From NCBI GenBank assembly GCA_023954475.1, contig JAMLHW010000003.1, positions 1 through 64,000 on the forward strand: a DNA stretch of 64,000 bases. Direction: 5' to 3'. The position numbers were made by a program, and so were the translations under genes. The notes beneath the pieces are model-generated. The model was not told the DNA's origin and searched no databases. It worked only from the letters and a program-made list of their open reading frames with translations. Shown in pieces: positions 1 through 5,344 of this stretch; within the stretch, counting starts at the first letter, position 1, and each line of letters starts with the position of its first letter. This DNA comes from Anaerolineae bacterium. GTDB lineage: Bacteria; Chloroflexota; Anaerolineae; Promineifilales; Promineifilaceae.

Positions 1-164
1 GTGAGTGGCAGGATGTTGTGTGCGCGAGAATTGACAAATCTCCGAGATTTGTCAATTCTGCCATGAACCTGCAAGCGGAACTGGCGGCGCAGTTGGCCGA
101 GGAAAGCCGCCTGAATGTGCTGATTCAAGAGAATCTGGCGAAGGTGGTAGTTGACGATGAGTGA
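1..164 (+). CDS. hsdM: HsdM, type I restriction-modification methyltransferase subunit, C-terminal end only
   Basis: Only the last 53 codons lie in the window; the reading frame is entered at position 3 and ends with TGA at 162-164. The visible tail (MNLQAELAAQLAEESRL and onward, ending VVVDDE) is a charged helix of the kind that closes HsdM proteins after the N6-adenine methylase domain. The call rests mainly on position: the stop codon overlaps the ATG of hsdS (157), as is usual in hsdMSR operons. Odd feature: a perfect palindrome (27-59) lies inside the frame and is translated as about 11 residues just before the final helix, so the protein carries a repeat-derived insertion. The catalytic NPPF region is outside the window and cannot be judged. 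Confidence 0.75.
   Translation, partial: EWQDVVCARIDKSPRFVNSAMNLQAELAAQLAEESRLNVLIQENLAKVVVDDE
27..59. repeat. REP-like palindrome copy 1, inside hsdM
   Basis: Perfect inverted repeat: arm AGAATTGACAAATCT, loop CCG, arm AGATTTGTCAATTCT. It has the same 15-3-15 geometry as the copies at 1382, 1660 and 2039. It lies in frame in the hsdM coding sequence and is translated without a stop. The family is probably mobilised or maintained by the RAYT transposase encoded at 1431-2087. Confidence 0.9.
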
Positions 165-1389
165 ATGGCAAGAAAGCACCATCGGTAGAATTCCTGCTCA
201 TTGGGAGTTCAAAAAAGTTTCTGATTGCGGCCTGCAAATCGGGGATGGCAATTATTCTTCGAAATATCCAAGACAAAAAGAACTTCTAAGTGAAGGTATA
301 CCATTTATTTCATCTACGGATCTGACAAATGGAAAAGTAATACGCGACAATTTACGCTACATTAGCCCAAAACAGCATAGTACCTTATTGAAAGGGCATA
401 TAAAAAAAGATGATGTCCTGATCGTTGTTCGAGGAAATGGAGTTGGAGATGTTGCATTAGTTGATGAGAGGTTTGACGGTGCAAATATTAACGCTCAACT
501 TGCGTTTTTTCGAGGCAACGATAATTATTCTGGTCCTTTCTTATACTATTTGTTGCTTAGTTACAATCAACGAGGCGTCACTACAAGATACGTGTCCGGC
601 TCTGCCCAACCACAAATTACAGTAAGAGCATTAAACCAAATTTTCCTCATCTTGCCCCCTTTATCAGAGCAAATAGCAATAACGGCCGTTCTTTCCTCCC
701 TCGACGACAAAATAGACCTCCTCCACCGCCAAAACAAAACCCTGGAAGCTCTCGCCCAAACCCTCTTCCGCCACTGGTTCATCGACGGCGCTGAGGACGG
801 TTGGGAAGAACGACCAGTAAACCACTTCGGGGATGTGATTTGTGGAAAGACGCCATCCAAAAAAGTCCTTGACTATTTCAATGGGAAAATACCTTTTATC
901 AAAATTCCAGATATGCACGGTCAGATTTTTATATTTGATACATCTGACAGCCTGACTGAACTGGGTAAAAACTCACAATTGAATAAAACAATCCCTCCTA
1001 GATCAATTAGTGTTAGCTGCATCGCAACAGTCGGTTTAGTCACGATGAATGCTTTTGAAAGCCAAACAAACCAACAAATCAACACAATTGTTCCGCACAA
1101 AGACTATTTCCGATACTTCTTGTATCTGATGATGTTAAGTTTAGAAGACGAGTTGGTTCTTATGGCTAGTGGGGGAACTGCAACCTTGAACCTCAATACA
1201 GGGAATTTTTCGAGGATGGACATCATTTCTCCGCCAAAGGCCATTCTTAAAGATTTTCATAATCTGGTTGAACCGTTGTTTGAGAAGATATTTCGGAATC
1301 AGTCACAAATTCGCACGCTGGAAAAACTACGCGACACTCTCCTGCCCAAGCTCATGAGCGGCGAGGTGCGCGTCCGCCATCAGAATTGA
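157..1389 (+). CDS. hsdS: HsdS, type I restriction-modification specificity subunit
   Basis: A 410-residue DNA-recognition subunit that directs the HsdM/HsdR complex to a bipartite target. Two target-recognition domains are visible: residues ~1-165 (starting MSEWQESTIGRIPAHWEF) and ~217-370. They are separated by the typical central conserved helix (~166-210; motifs PPLSEQIAI, LSSLDDKIDLL, LAQTLFRHWF). The distal conserved helix ends in LRDTLLPKLMSGEVRV. Start: ATG 157 overlaps the hsdM stop; an in-frame TTG six bases earlier is less likely. Length is normal for the family. The last two codons (AAT TGA) lie within a palindromic repeat, so the stop codon itself is repeat-derived. The gene is AT-richer than its neighbours and has no TCGGCCGA octamer, consistent with horizontal acquisition or TRD exchange. 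Confidence 0.93.
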   Translation: MSEWQESTIGRIPAHWEFKKVSDCGLQIGDGNYSSKYPRQKELLSEGIPFISSTDLTNGKVIRDNLRYISPKQHSTLLKGHIKKDDVLIVVRGNGVGDVALVDERFDGANINAQLAFFRGNDNYSGPFLYYLLLSYNQRGVTTRYVSGSAQPQITVRALNQIFLILPPLSEQIAITAVLSSLDDKIDLLHRQNKTLEALAQTLFRHWFIDGAEDGWEERPVNHFGDVICGKTPSKKVLDYFNGKIPFIKIPDMHGQIFIFDTSDSLTELGKNSQLNKTIPPRSISVSCIATVGLVTMNAFESQTNQQINTIVPHKDYFRYFLYLMMLSLEDELVLMASGGTATLNLNTGNFSRMDIISPPKAILKDFHNLVEPLFEKIFRNQSQIRTLEKLRDTLLPKLMSGEVRVRHQN

Positions 1390-1430: not shown

Positions 1431-2087
1431 ATGACCATCCAACCACTCCAATTCGGCCAGACCTACCACGTCTACAATCGCGGCAACAACCGCGAAAACC
1501 TGTTCGTCGAACCGCGCAACTACCCCTACTTCCTCAAGCTCTACGCCAAACATATCCTGCCCATCGCCGAAACCTACGCCTACTGCCTGCTGCCCAACCA
1601 TTTCCACTTTGCCCTCCGCACCCGCAGCGAAGAAGAACAAGAAACGTATTGGCGCGAGCAGATTTGTCTTTTCTCTGAGAAAAGACAAATCTCAAGACAA
1701 ATCTCGCCACCACCACCCTTCAAACTCACCAAACCCAGCCTCGCCTTCAAAAATCTGTTCATTGCCTACAGCCGCGCCTTCAACAACGCCAACGGCCGTA
1801 CCGGCACCTTATTCGAACGGCCGTTTCACCGCAAACCCGTTGACAGCGAAGCCTATCTCCTCACACTCATTACCTACATCCACCAAAACCCGCAAAAGCA
1901 CGGCCTCATCGACGATTATCGCGAATGGAAATGGTCATCTTACAGCGCCTACTGTTCTGATCAACCATCCAACATTCAGCGCGGAGAGGTTTTTGCCTGG
2001 TTTGGTGGCCAGCGCCACTTCAGTGAAGCGCATCAACAAGATTTGACAAATCTTCAAGATTTGTCAAATCTTTGGGAACCAACATGA
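1431..2087 (+). CDS. REP-associated tyrosine transposase (RAYT, IS200/IS605-like Y1 family)
   Basis: A 218-residue single-strand DNA transposase-like enzyme. Family signatures are clear: YHVYNRGNNRENLF at the N-terminus, the HUH metal motif in CLLPNHFHFAL, a late region FIAYSRAFNNANGRTGTLFE, and TYIHQNPQKHG, where the tyrosine is the probable nucleophile. RAYTs process palindromic REP sequences, and this gene is bounded by two perfect palindromes (1382-1414, 2039-2071) and contains a third (1660-1692), translated as QICLFSEKRQIS in a linker. Start: ATG 1431; in-frame upstream codons are inside the repeat. The TGA (2085-2087) overlaps the hsdR ATG, so it is embedded in the restriction operon and probably translationally coupled. 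The last residues (about QDLTNLQDLSNL) are encoded by the downstream repeat. Confidence 0.9.
   Translation: MTIQPLQFGQTYHVYNRGNNRENLFVEPRNYPYFLKLYAKHILPIAETYAYCLLPNHFHFALRTRSEEEQETYWREQICLFSEKRQISRQISPPPPFKLTKPSLAFKNLFIAYSRAFNNANGRTGTLFERPFHRKPVDSEAYLLTLITYIHQNPQKHGLIDDYREWKWSSYSAYCSDQPSNIQRGEVFAWFGGQRHFSEAHQQDLTNLQDLSNLWEPT
1660..1692. repeat. REP-like palindrome copy 3, inside the RAYT gene
   Basis: Perfect inverted repeat: arm AGATTTGTCTTTTCT, loop CTG, arm AGAAAAGACAAATCT. Same 15-3-15 layout as copies 1 and 2, but in the opposite sense and with two compensated changes per arm (CTT for CAA). An extra half-site AAGACAAATCT follows at 1694-1704. The whole element is in frame within the transposase gene. 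Confidence 0.88.
2039..2071. repeat. REP-like palindrome copy 4, at the RAYT-hsdR junction
   Basis: Perfect inverted repeat: arm AGATTTGACAAATCT, loop TCA, arm AGATTTGTCAAATCT. Each arm is itself nearly palindromic around the central GWC, so alternative cruciforms are possible. It encodes the C-terminus of the RAYT and ends 12 nt before the hsdR ATG, so the hairpin could influence hsdR translation. Confidence 0.9.
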
Positions 2088-5000
2088 CCACAAAAATCAC
2101 TGAAGACGCCATCGAACTGCTGGCCATCGAGCGCCTGGAAGCGGAAGGGTACCGCTACCTGTACGGCCCAAACATCGCCCCCCCTGCGACAGGCTCAGGG
2201 AGCGCGGCGGCTGAGCTTGCCGAAACCGAACGCGCCAGCTATGAAGACGTCTTGTTGCTGGGTCGCCTCGAAGCCGCCGTCGCTCGCCTCAATCCGGCCA
2301 TCCCGCCCACTGCCCGCCTGAATGCCTTGCGCCAAATCCAGCGCCTCAACGCTCCCGACCTCATCGCCAACAACGAAGCATTCCACCGCCTGCTTACCGA
2401 AGGCATCCCCGTCACCGTTCACAAAGACGGCCAGGAGCGCGGCGATCTCGTCTGGCTGGTCGATTTTGAAGACCCGGCCAACAATGAATTCCTGGCCGTC
2501 AACCAGTTCACCGTCATTGAAAACGGCATCAACAAGCGCCCCGATGTGGTGCTGTTTGTCAACGGCTTGCCGCTAGTTGTCATCGAACTGAAGAACGCCG
2601 CCGACGAAAATGCCACCGTGCGCACCGCCTTCAAGCAGCTACAGACGTACAAAGCGACTATTCCCACGCTCTTCACGTACAATAGCCTACTGGTCATTTC
2701 GGATGGACTGGACGCGCGGGCTGGATCGCTGTCGGCTGGTTTCGGCCGATTTATGACATGGAAATCGGCCGATGGCAAAACTGAAGCGTCCCACCTCGTC
2801 CCAGAGTTGGAAACCCTCATTCGCGGCGCACTCAATCCGCAGACACTGCTCGATCTCATTCGCTACTTCACCGTCTTTGAGCAGAGCAAACGCGAAGACG
2901 CCGCGACCGGTATCGTCACCATCGAGACCACTAAGAAAATCGCCGGTTATCACCAATACTACGCCGTCAACAAAGCCGTCGAATCGACTATTCGCGCTGC
3001 CGGTGTACTGGAGTTGACAAATCTTCAAGATACATCAACTTTGCGAGAAGCGCCGGAAGGGTATCAATTGCCATCTGTACGCAAACAACCCAAAGGCGAC
3101 CGCAAAGCCGGTGTCGTCTGGCACACACAGGGCAGCGGCAAGTCGCTGTCGATGGTGTTCTACACCGGGAAAGTGGTTCAATTGCTCCACAATCCGACCA
3201 TCGTCGTCATCACCGACCGCAACGATCTCGATGACCAGCTTTTCGACACCTTTGCCGGTTGCAAGCAATTGCTGCGGCAGGAACCCGTCCAGGCCGAGAG
3301 CCGCGATCACCTCAAAGCGCTGCTCAAGGTCGCATCGGGTGGTGTCGTCTTTACCACCATCCAGAAGTTCCAGCCCGAAACCGGCAACGTCTTTGAAACC
3401 CTGTCAGAACGGCGCAACATCGTCGTCATTGCCGATGAAGCTCACCGCACGCAATACGGTTTCAAAGGCAAGCTGATCGATGACAAAGACGCAGACGGCA
3501 ACATCGTCGGCAAACGCCTCGTCTACGGCTTTGCCAAATATCTGCGCGATGCGCTGCCCAATGCCACGTTCCTCGGCTTCACCGGCACGCCCATCGAAGC
3601 CCAGGACATCAACACGCCTGCCGTTTTCGGCAACTACATCGACATTTACGACATCGCGCAAGCGGTCGCTGACGGTGCAACGGTGCCGATCTACTACGAA
3701 AGCCGCCTGGCGAAAATCGAGCTGGACGAGGCCAAGCGACAGCTTATCCGCGATCTGGACGAAGAACTGGACGAAGCAGACCTGACCGATTCGCAAAAGG
3801 CCAAGGCCAAATGGACGCAGTTGGAGGCGTTGGTCGGCAGCGAAGCCCGCCTGCGCAATGTTGCGGGTGATATTGTCGCTCATTTTGAGCAGCGACAAGC
3901 GGTGTTTGAGGGCAAGGGCATGATTGTCACCATGTCGCGCCGTATTGCCGTTGCGCTCTACGATGAGATCGTGGGGTTGCGCCCGCAGTGGCACGCTGAT
4001 GATTTGCAGAAAGGAGCGCTCAAGGTGGTGATGACGGCTGCTTCGGCCGATGGCCCGGAGATGGCGCGTCATCACACGAACAAGCGTCAGCGGCGTCAAC
4101 TCGCCGACCGCATGAAGGATGTCACCGATCCGCTGCAACTGGTGATTGTCTGTGATATGTGGCTCACGGGCTTTGACGTGCCGTTCCTGCACACGATGTA
4201 CATTGACAAGCCGATGAAAGGGCACAACCTGATGCAGGCTATCGCCCGCGTCAACCGAGTCTACAAGGATAAACGCGGCGGCTTGATCGTCGATTATCTG
4301 GGTATTGCGTCGGATTTGAAGCGGGCATTGTCGTTTTACTCGGAGAGCGGCGGCAAGGGCGATCCGGCGCTGGCGCAGGAACAGGCCGTTGCGCTGATGC
4401 TGGAGAAGTTGGAAGTGGTGTCGCAAATGTTCCACGGTTTCCCGTATGAGGATTATTTTTCGGCCGATACGTCGCAGAAGCTGGCGTTGATACTTTCGGC
4501 CGAAAACTACATCCTGGGCCTGGAAGACGGCCGACGCCGCTTCATCAATCAAGTAACGGCCCTCTCACAGGCATTTGCCATCGCCGTACCCCACGAAGAA
4601 GCGCTGGATGTCAAAGATGAGATCGCCTTCTTCCAGGCTGTCAAAGCACGATTGGTCAAGTTCGATGGCAGCGGTAGCGGTCGCACCGATGAAGAGCTGG
4701 AAACAGCGATTCGCCAGGTTATCGACGCCGCACTCGTTTCCGATCAGGTGATCGACATTTTCGATGCCGCCGGGTTGAAAAAGCCGGACATTTCGATCCT
4801 GTCCGAAGAATTTCTCCACGAAATCAGAGACATGGAACACAAGAATGTGGCGTTGGAAGTGTTGCGCAAACTGCTCAATGATGAAATCAAAGCCCGCGCC
4901 ACGAAGAATCTCGTGCAAAGCAAGAAGCTGGAAGAGATGCTGGAAGAGTCGCTCCGTCGTTACCACAACAAAGCCATTACATCGGCACAAGTGATCGAGG

Positions 5001-5344
5001 AACTGATCGATCTTGCCCAAGAAATGGAGCAAATGGACGACGAAGCGAAGCAAATGGGATTGACCGATTACGAATACGCCTTCTACTCGGCCGTCGCCAA
5101 CAACGAGAGCGCCCGCGAATTGATGCAGCAAGAAAAGTTACGGGAACTGGCCGTTGTCCTGACCGAACGCGTTCGCGCCAACACATCGATAGATTGGACG
5201 ATCAAAGAAAGCGTGCGCTCCAAGCTACGCGTCATCGTCAAGCGCACCCTGCGGCAGTATGGTTATCCACCCGACATGCAGAAGCTGGCGACTGACACCG
5301 TATTGAAACAGGCAGAACTAATCGCCGAAGAACTGGCAAACTAG
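2084..5344 (+). CDS. hsdR: HsdR, type I restriction endonuclease/translocase subunit
   Basis: A 1086-residue motor and nuclease subunit of the type I enzyme. The N-terminal PD-(D/E)XK nuclease is visible as a conserved Asp in KRPDVVLFVNG and then VVIELKNAAD (~residue 168). The superfamily 2 translocase follows: Walker A in HTQGSGKS (~345-352), DEAH box in VIADEAHRTQYG (~450), FLGFTGTP (~499) and motif VI QAIARVNRVY (~718). A helical C-terminal part mediates assembly with HsdM/HsdS. Start: ATG 2084, overlapping the RAYT stop; a TTG at 2072 lies at the edge of the repeat and is less likely. A degenerate palindrome (3012-3040) is translated as a linker just before the Walker A region. Five TCGGCCGA octamers are present, unlike hsdS and the RAYT gene, so hsdR carries the host-like signature. 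Confidence 0.95.
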   Translation: MTTKITEDAIELLAIERLEAEGYRYLYGPNIAPPATGSGSAAAELAETERASYEDVLLLGRLEAAVARLNPAIPPTARLNALRQIQRLNAPDLIANNEAFHRLLTEGIPVTVHKDGQERGDLVWLVDFEDPANNEFLAVNQFTVIENGINKRPDVVLFVNGLPLVVIELKNAADENATVRTAFKQLQTYKATIPTLFTYNSLLVISDGLDARAGSLSAGFGRFMTWKSADGKTEASHLVPELETLIRGALNPQTLLDLIRYFTVFEQSKREDAATGIVTIETTKKIAGYHQYYAVNKAVESTIRAAGVLELTNLQDTSTLREAPEGYQLPSVRKQPKGDRKAGVVWHTQGSGKSLSMVFYTGKVVQLLHNPTIVVITDRNDLDDQLFDTFAGCKQLLRQEPVQAESRDHLKALLKVASGGVVFTTIQKFQPETGNVFETLSERRNIVVIADEAHRTQYGFKGKLIDDKDADGNIVGKRLVYGFAKYLRDALPNATFLGFTGTPIEAQDINTPAVFGNYIDIYDIAQAVADGATVPIYYESRLAKIELDEAKRQLIRDLDEELDEADLTDSQKAKAKWTQLEALVGSEARLRNVAGDIVAHFEQRQAVFEGKGMIVTMSRRIAVALYDEIVGLRPQWHADDLQKGALKVVMTAASADGPEMARHHTNKRQRRQLADRMKDVTDPLQLVIVCDMWLTGFDVPFLHTMYIDKPMKGHNLMQAIARVNRVYKDKRGGLIVDYLGIASDLKRALSFYSESGGKGDPALAQEQAVALMLEKLEVVSQMFHGFPYEDYFSADTSQKLALILSAENYILGLEDGRRRFINQVTALSQAFAIAVPHEEALDVKDEIAFFQAVKARLVKFDGSGSGRTDEELETAIRQVIDAALVSDQVIDIFDAAGLKKPDISILSEEFLHEIRDMEHKNVALEVLRKLLNDEIKARATKNLVQSKKLEEMLEESLRRYHNKAITSAQVIEELIDLAQEMEQMDDEAKQMGLTDYEYAFYSAVANNESARELMQQEKLRELAVVLTERVRANTSIDWTIKESVRSKLRVIVKRTLRQYGYPPDMQKLATDTVLKQAELIAEELAN
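3012..3040. repeat. REP-like palindrome copy 5 (degenerate), inside hsdR
   Basis: Left arm AGTTGACAAATCT, loop TCA, right arm AGATACATCAACT; 10 of 13 positions pair, against perfect pairing in the other copies. It is read in frame as ELTNLQDTSTL, strongly resembling the LTNLQDLSNL encoded by copy 4 in the same frame. This looks like an older insertion that has lost its hairpin while the protein was maintained. Confidence 0.75.

Follow-up and report, generated by a model that had tools for sequence, protein, structure and literature searches.

The window (the whole 64,000-nt stretch of DNA analysed here) begins at base 1 of a contig (C20) and exhibits the 3' part of a type I restriction-modification (R-M) operon. 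This operon is divided between two contigs of the same genome (C15 and C20), and all of the loci with which it is compared below are MAG contigs or other assemblies. The following features were identified in the window:

1-164, plus strand: last copy of a tandem unit of about 160 bp, made of an hsdS-start remnant (1-26), a palindrome (27-59) and a copy of the HsdM C-terminal helix (60-164)
27-59, no strand: 33-nt palindromic element, read as RIDKSPRFVNS
157-1389, plus strand: hsdS2, type I specificity subunit (Pfam Methylase_S, 1.6e-35)
1382-1414, no strand: palindromic element at the 3' end of hsdS2, with 16-bp arms
1431-2087, plus strand: RAYT / TnpA_REP (REP-associated transposase), 218 aa, with the HuH motif NHFHF and the Y motif YIHQNP
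1660-1692, no strand: variant palindrome, in frame in the RAYT gene (QICLFSEKRQIS); many relatives have their own palindrome there
2038-2072, no strand: palindromic element in the last RAYT codons (DLTNLQDLSNLW), immediately upstream of the hsdR start
2084-5344, plus strand: hsdR (TIGR00348, 3.8e-176; HSDR_N, SWI2_SNF2 and T1RH-like_C)
3010-3042, no strand: decayed in-frame copy in hsdR, ELTNLQDTSTL, in a loop of variable length

The end of ORF 3-164 overlaps the hsdS2 start, the TGA stop of hsdS2 is supplied by the palindrome at 1382-1414, and the hsdR start overlaps the RAYT stop (ATGA). The segment 27-59 (AGAATTGACAAATCTCCGAGATTTGTCAATTCT, 33 nt) consists of two 16-nt arms, 100% complementary, around a 1-nt centre, and lies in a frame that is open throughout (ORF 3-164, 53 aa), as the original prediction described it. 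Its fold as single-stranded DNA is better than that of 200 out of 200 shuffled sequences (z -3.6). The first 2.1 kb exhibit four perfect inverted repeats (27-59, 1382-1414, 1660-1692 and 2038-2072), which exceed in length all other perfect inverted repeats of the 64 kb. The core of 27-59 is common to 1382-1414 and 2038-2072, while 1660-1692 is a variant and 3010-3042 a decayed copy. The build of the element is nested: two 15-nt arms enclose a 3-nt centre, and each arm is itself a 6+3+6 near-palindrome. Two of the three reading frames of the element are free of stop codons. In this Chloroflexota genome a different kind of repeat, TCGGCCGA, is a highly iterated palindrome resembling HIP1: it occurs 102 times between positions 2742 and 61982 of the window (about once per 600 bp; 1.7 expected in shuffles), is absent before 2742, and all other palindromic octamers have at most 6 occurrences.

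The RAYT scores 53 bits (E-value = 2.7e-14) against the NCBIfam profile NF047646, the cut-off of which is 80 bits. Its HuH and Y motifs are preserved in six homologues, its pN/pS against the two closest orthologues is about 0.25, and it has palindromes on both sides (1382-1414 and 2038-2072). Homologues of this RAYT were found in 112 of the 396 genomes of the class Anaerolineae. Among 40 RAYT loci, nearly all exhibit perfect palindromes of 31-41 nt near the gene, with a sequence particular to each lineage, and in about 20 loci a palindrome lies inside the RAYT gene near codon 75-90. After recentring, 97 elements define a 33-nt unit with sharp AGA..TCT ends, in which the inner 6+3+6 arm pairing reaches 5-6 of 6 in 71 elements (0.9% in shuffles). 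No conserved insertion target was found in these 97 elements beyond the AGA..TCT ends, the flanks being random, and the GTAG/CGTC foot is not a feature of them (outer bases GTAG in 4, CTAC in 1, CGTC in 1 and GACG in 2).

In-frame copies outside the RAYT gene lie mostly in R-M genes, namely hsdM and hsdR of locus L140, hsdR of L153, the EcoEI-type HsdR genes of L127 and L040, an MmeI-like gene in L126, an Eco57I-like gene in L158 and a type ISP gene in L076; a DUF2298 membrane protein in L039 is among the exceptions. The MmeI-like R-M gene of L126 (2996-5956), located beside a RAYT, is crossed in frame by two palindromes and has one more at its stop codon. The frequency of R-M families beside RAYTs is suggestive: the commonest Pfam families listed for the ORFs adjoining 38 RAYTs include Methylase_S (4), MmeI_Mtase (3), N6_Mtase (2), HSDR_N (2) and Eco57I (2), out of 68, and no R-M family is among the 25 commonest families listed for distant control ORFs. 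The two loci most similar to the query were excluded from this count. Because the loci were sampled by similarity to the RAYT of an hsd operon, the excess is provisional and an unbiased survey is needed.

Orthologous operons, partly as fragments, were identified in four other MAGs (L047/L120, Ardenticatenaceae CFX1; L071; L086/L119; L043). The L120 locus exhibits the order hsdM-hsdS-palindrome-RAYT-palindrome-hsdR, and L119 likewise except that its copy at the hsdS end is not intact; the RAYTs are 74-76% identical. REPs are usually described as extragenic and genome-wide. Unlike the classical REP, with its high copy number and mostly extragenic location, the present element has seven intact copies in its 5.1-Mb genome, all seven inside this hsd operon (genome-wide counts are from pattern searches). 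Copies with at most 2 mismatches lie in hsd operons in 4 of 4 cases in the L047/CFX1 genome, 2 of 2 in that of L071, 3 of 3 in that of L086 and 1 of 2 in that of L043. Similar palindromes occur elsewhere in the genome in other Anaerolineae and in several Saprospiraceae MAGs. The latter (L037-L088; Bacteroidota, another phylum) hold near-identical 33-nt palindromes, up to 20 copies per genome (in L037), and no RAYT homologue was detected in the 20-copy L037 genome with the RAYT of the window as query. Viral contigs gave two exact matches to the core, neither of them with the full element.

The copies occupy fixed places of the operon: two loops of HsdM, the hsdS end, the inside and the end of the RAYT gene, and hsdR. 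The hsdR copy at 3010-3042, its loop being of variable length, is weak evidence of an insertion. Given the position and frame of the copies, their confinement, their conservation at the DNA level and their association with a constrained RAYT, the segment 27-59 is probably a copy of a nested, REP-like element of 33 nt that is the partner of the RAYT at 1431-2087 in a type I R-M operon.

The palindromes might instead be regulatory mRNA hairpins acting on stability, stalling or HsdM/HsdS/HsdR stoichiometry, the RAYT being incidental. The RNA folding of the intact copies far exceeds that of shuffles (z -3.2 to -6.4), copies are close to gene ends, and what is conserved is nucleic acid and not peptide (see below). 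However, most related RAYTs have similarly built palindromes of a sequence of their own, also inside the RAYT gene, and a purely regulatory hairpin need not match the RAYT lineage. We consider this explanation improbable.

The full hsdM of the genome lies on contig C15 (locus L021). It encodes 547 aa with N6_Mtase and HsdM_N domains, and its last helix comes after '...FDFAERFAE', with no palindrome there. On its 3' side, two 160-bp tandem units (L021:787-1213) are followed by hsdS1, truncated by the contig end; positions 1-164 of the window are the third unit, followed by hsdS2. Each unit is made of ATGCGTGAGTGGCAGGATGTTGTGTGCGCG (the hsdS start, MREWQDVV), the same palindrome and GCCATGAACCT.. 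(a copy of the hsdM tail, GCC ATG AAC C..), and retains the hsdM-to-hsdS start/stop overlap. Since the window starts with the third unit, ORF 3-164 is not HsdM but a chimeric mini-ORF composed of the hsdS start, the palindrome and the hsdM-tail copy. The palindrome at 27-59 marks the junction at which the hsdM tail and the hsdS start were duplicated in tandem. GTGCGCG stands 5' of the palindrome in the unit and also of that of hsdS2, which suggests that the unit may be what remains of an hsdS cassette after loss of all but its start and its 3' palindrome. A second lineage, L140, exhibits an array of hsdM-tail and palindrome units between hsdM and hsdS. It is of 128 bp x3.9 (160 bp x2.6 in the present genome), sits in the middle of its contig and has one frameshifted unit copy; the palindromes of the two arrays are unrelated.

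The original prediction placed 27-59 inside HsdM, as an in-frame insertion just before the C-terminal helix, a reading to which the open frame and the helix directly 3' of the palindrome lend themselves. Yet the complete hsdM on C15 lacks a palindrome at this point, an hsdS start precedes the stretch, the stretch is repeated in tandem, and a palindrome before the last HsdM helix was found in 0 of the 33 compared loci. The copy at 27-59 belongs to a tandem duplicate of the hsdM tail, and its reading as an insertion in HsdM is highly improbable.

In-frame insertions of this kind do occur in the true HsdM, at other places. The C15 hsdM contains two in-frame copies, SELTNLQDLSILP and ADLTNLQDLSNRQ (L021:1359-1391 and 1537-1567). 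An alignment of HsdM sequences (33 distinct loci and contigs of a viral collection) places the RAYT-linked inserts in two loops (sites 1 and 2), after LWFLxR and after TYHxW, where they add about 10-14 residues compared with the homologues. Conservation of the segment without the palindrome, which would have spoken against insertion, was not observed in this alignment: relatives without the palindrome, such as L161 (76% identity) and L222, are also without the segment. In an AlphaFold2 model of the L071 HsdM (pLDDT 74, shallow alignment), the inserts are predicted in low-confidence loops (383-390 and 439-443), both falling between strands or helices. The same loops harbour unrelated palindromes in other loci: AGACCCTAAAGGTCT-type in L140 (both sites) and L187 (site 1), AATCCCTAAAGG-type at site 2 of L170, and another one of 29 nt at site 1 of L165. 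The tolerance of HsdM is not absolute, since the site-2 copy of L043 has expanded into a repeat with an in-frame TGA, apparently breaking hsdM. In L241 (4113-4750), hsdM is split near site 2, beside an unrelated 53-nt palindrome with 25-bp arms. The length of 11 codons, which had been proposed to help tolerance, is indeed a multiple of three, but it belongs to the element itself, because 33 nt is also the commonest length outside coding regions (44 of 87 non-coding palindromes; 24 of 43 coding ones). Coding copies exhibit no difference from non-coding ones that would indicate selection for a multiple of three.

The site-2 33-mer is identical (33/33) in the present genome, L120, L071 and L119, with hsdM outside the palindromes at 80-84% nucleotide identity; between the present hsdM and that of L120, 0 of 1355 33-nt windows outside the palindromes are identical. 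This same 33-mer is read as ELTNLQDLSIL in the present genome and L119, and as RIDKSSRFVNS in L120 and L071, and its flanks differ in length. It is therefore the DNA, not the peptide, that is conserved. At site 1, L119 has AAAGTTG..CAACTTT in place of AGATTTG..CAAATCT, that is, two compensated base pairs. The variants particular to each site (ATTT at site 1, AATT at site 2) are for the most part common to several species, which argues for old, orthologous, maintained insertions rather than recent independent ones; renewal of the palindromes at the same place by the RAYT is a possible alternative.

Selection of the inserted peptide as an HsdM linker or interaction segment would account for the site-1 inserts, DLTNLQDLSN in 4 of 5 HsdMs, and for the persistence of inserts in several species. 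It is scarcely credible in view of KLTNLQDLST at site 1 of L119, the reading of the site-2 DNA in two frames and the many insert-free homologues. An assembly artefact (a misjoin at the contig-start repeat, with collapsed or chimeric units), suggested by a draft contig that starts exactly within a repeat unit, can be virtually dismissed, as the four hsdM-tail copies (hsdM, two C15 units, window unit) exhibit 13 differences and the comparable L140 array, with its unrelated palindrome, is far from being a contig-start feature.

As for the element as a partner of the RAYT, the RAYT would place or keep the palindromes by single-strand HuH chemistry, as in TnpA_REP biochemistry, and single-stranded AGAATTGACAAATCTNNNAGATTTGTCAATTCT is its putative binding or cleavage substrate. 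No near-identical pair of filled and empty sites was found and no movement was seen, so that RAYT-driven insertion is what we infer. Survival in coding DNA would be favoured by the 11-codon length, by two open frames out of three and by HsdM loops tolerant of extra residues. The DNA (or mRNA) hairpin, rather than the peptide, would be what is maintained, and pairs of palindromes may act as exchange points that give rise to the hsdM-tail/hsdS arrays. Of the 13 differences between the tail copies, 10 are synonymous and 3 non-synonymous (pN/pS about 0.1), which indicates that purifying selection acted on the helix over most of the period in which the copies diverged. This selection may have acted either in the mini-ORFs or in the hsdM donors before copying.

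A bolder proposal, which we regard as doubtful, is that the RAYT is a working part of the operon. The palindromes would be under DNA-level selection in hsdM, hsdS, RAYT and hsdR as exchange points copying or shuffling hsdM-tail/hsdS cassettes, and the junction mini-ORFs (palindrome and HsdM helix) would be translated, their products possibly binding HsdS. If this were true, cassette exchange at the palindromes would change the target specificity with no need of an invertase. In the present case a defence operon is the only place of a transposase and its palindromes, which are translated in several proteins and identical as DNA amid diverging coding sequence. What keeps REPs and RAYTs in genomes thus becomes a question testable in one small locus. 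The two HsdM loops, which repeatedly accept foreign segments, may also be useful for the engineering of type I enzymes.

The original prediction held that no in-frame insertions were known for REP/RAYT families. This is contradicted by Di Nocera et al. 2013 (PMC3733652), who describe GTAG/CGTC REPs lying in frame within genes, some of them with tyrosine-transposase REPtrons, and by REPs inside their own TnpA_REP gene (PMC6006769). The present element resembles the GTAG/CGTC REPs (PMC3733652) in being a 20-40-bp palindrome with a RAYT/REPtron link and in-frame copies in DNA-processing genes, some copies supplying stop codons and some hitting the same site, as in Xanthomonas recB. It differs from them in its nested 33-nt build without a GTAG/CGTC foot, in the presence of all copies in one R-M operon, and in the conservation of coding DNA across species. 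As in-frame REPs are already published (PMC3733652), the present case is a variant of known REP behaviour. TnpA_REP subclass 2.4, as characterized in parts of Quentin et al. 2018 (PMC6006769), occurs in Bacteroidetes and various phyla, with REPs, including 'double foot' ones, mainly inside the tnpA_REP gene. The palindrome at 1660-1692 exhibits this trait; the Y motif YIHQNP is closer to that of subclass 2.6 than to that of 2.4; placement in hsd operons is not reported for subclass 2.4 in those parts of the paper.

Like Rickettsia palindromic elements (RPE), the present palindromes are translated in frame within unrelated proteins, and the insert is missing from HsdM homologues without a palindrome. 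Unlike RPE, they are associated with a transposase gene flanked by copies, are 33 nt long and belong to one operon only. The locus also resembles multi-hsdS type I R-M loci (pneumococcal tvr/cod) in having two hsdS genes and repeats able to recombine. Unlike in tvr/cod, the repeats are hsdM-tail and palindrome units and switching was not observed; no invertase or recombinase gene was seen in the hsd operon. No paper combining RAYT and hsd genes was found in the open-access literature. The new aspects are that the element is confined to a type I R-M operon, that palindromes in coding sequence are conserved as DNA even where the reading frame differs, that unrelated palindromes have repeatedly used the same HsdM loops, and that two lineages have hsdM-tail arrays bounded by palindromes.
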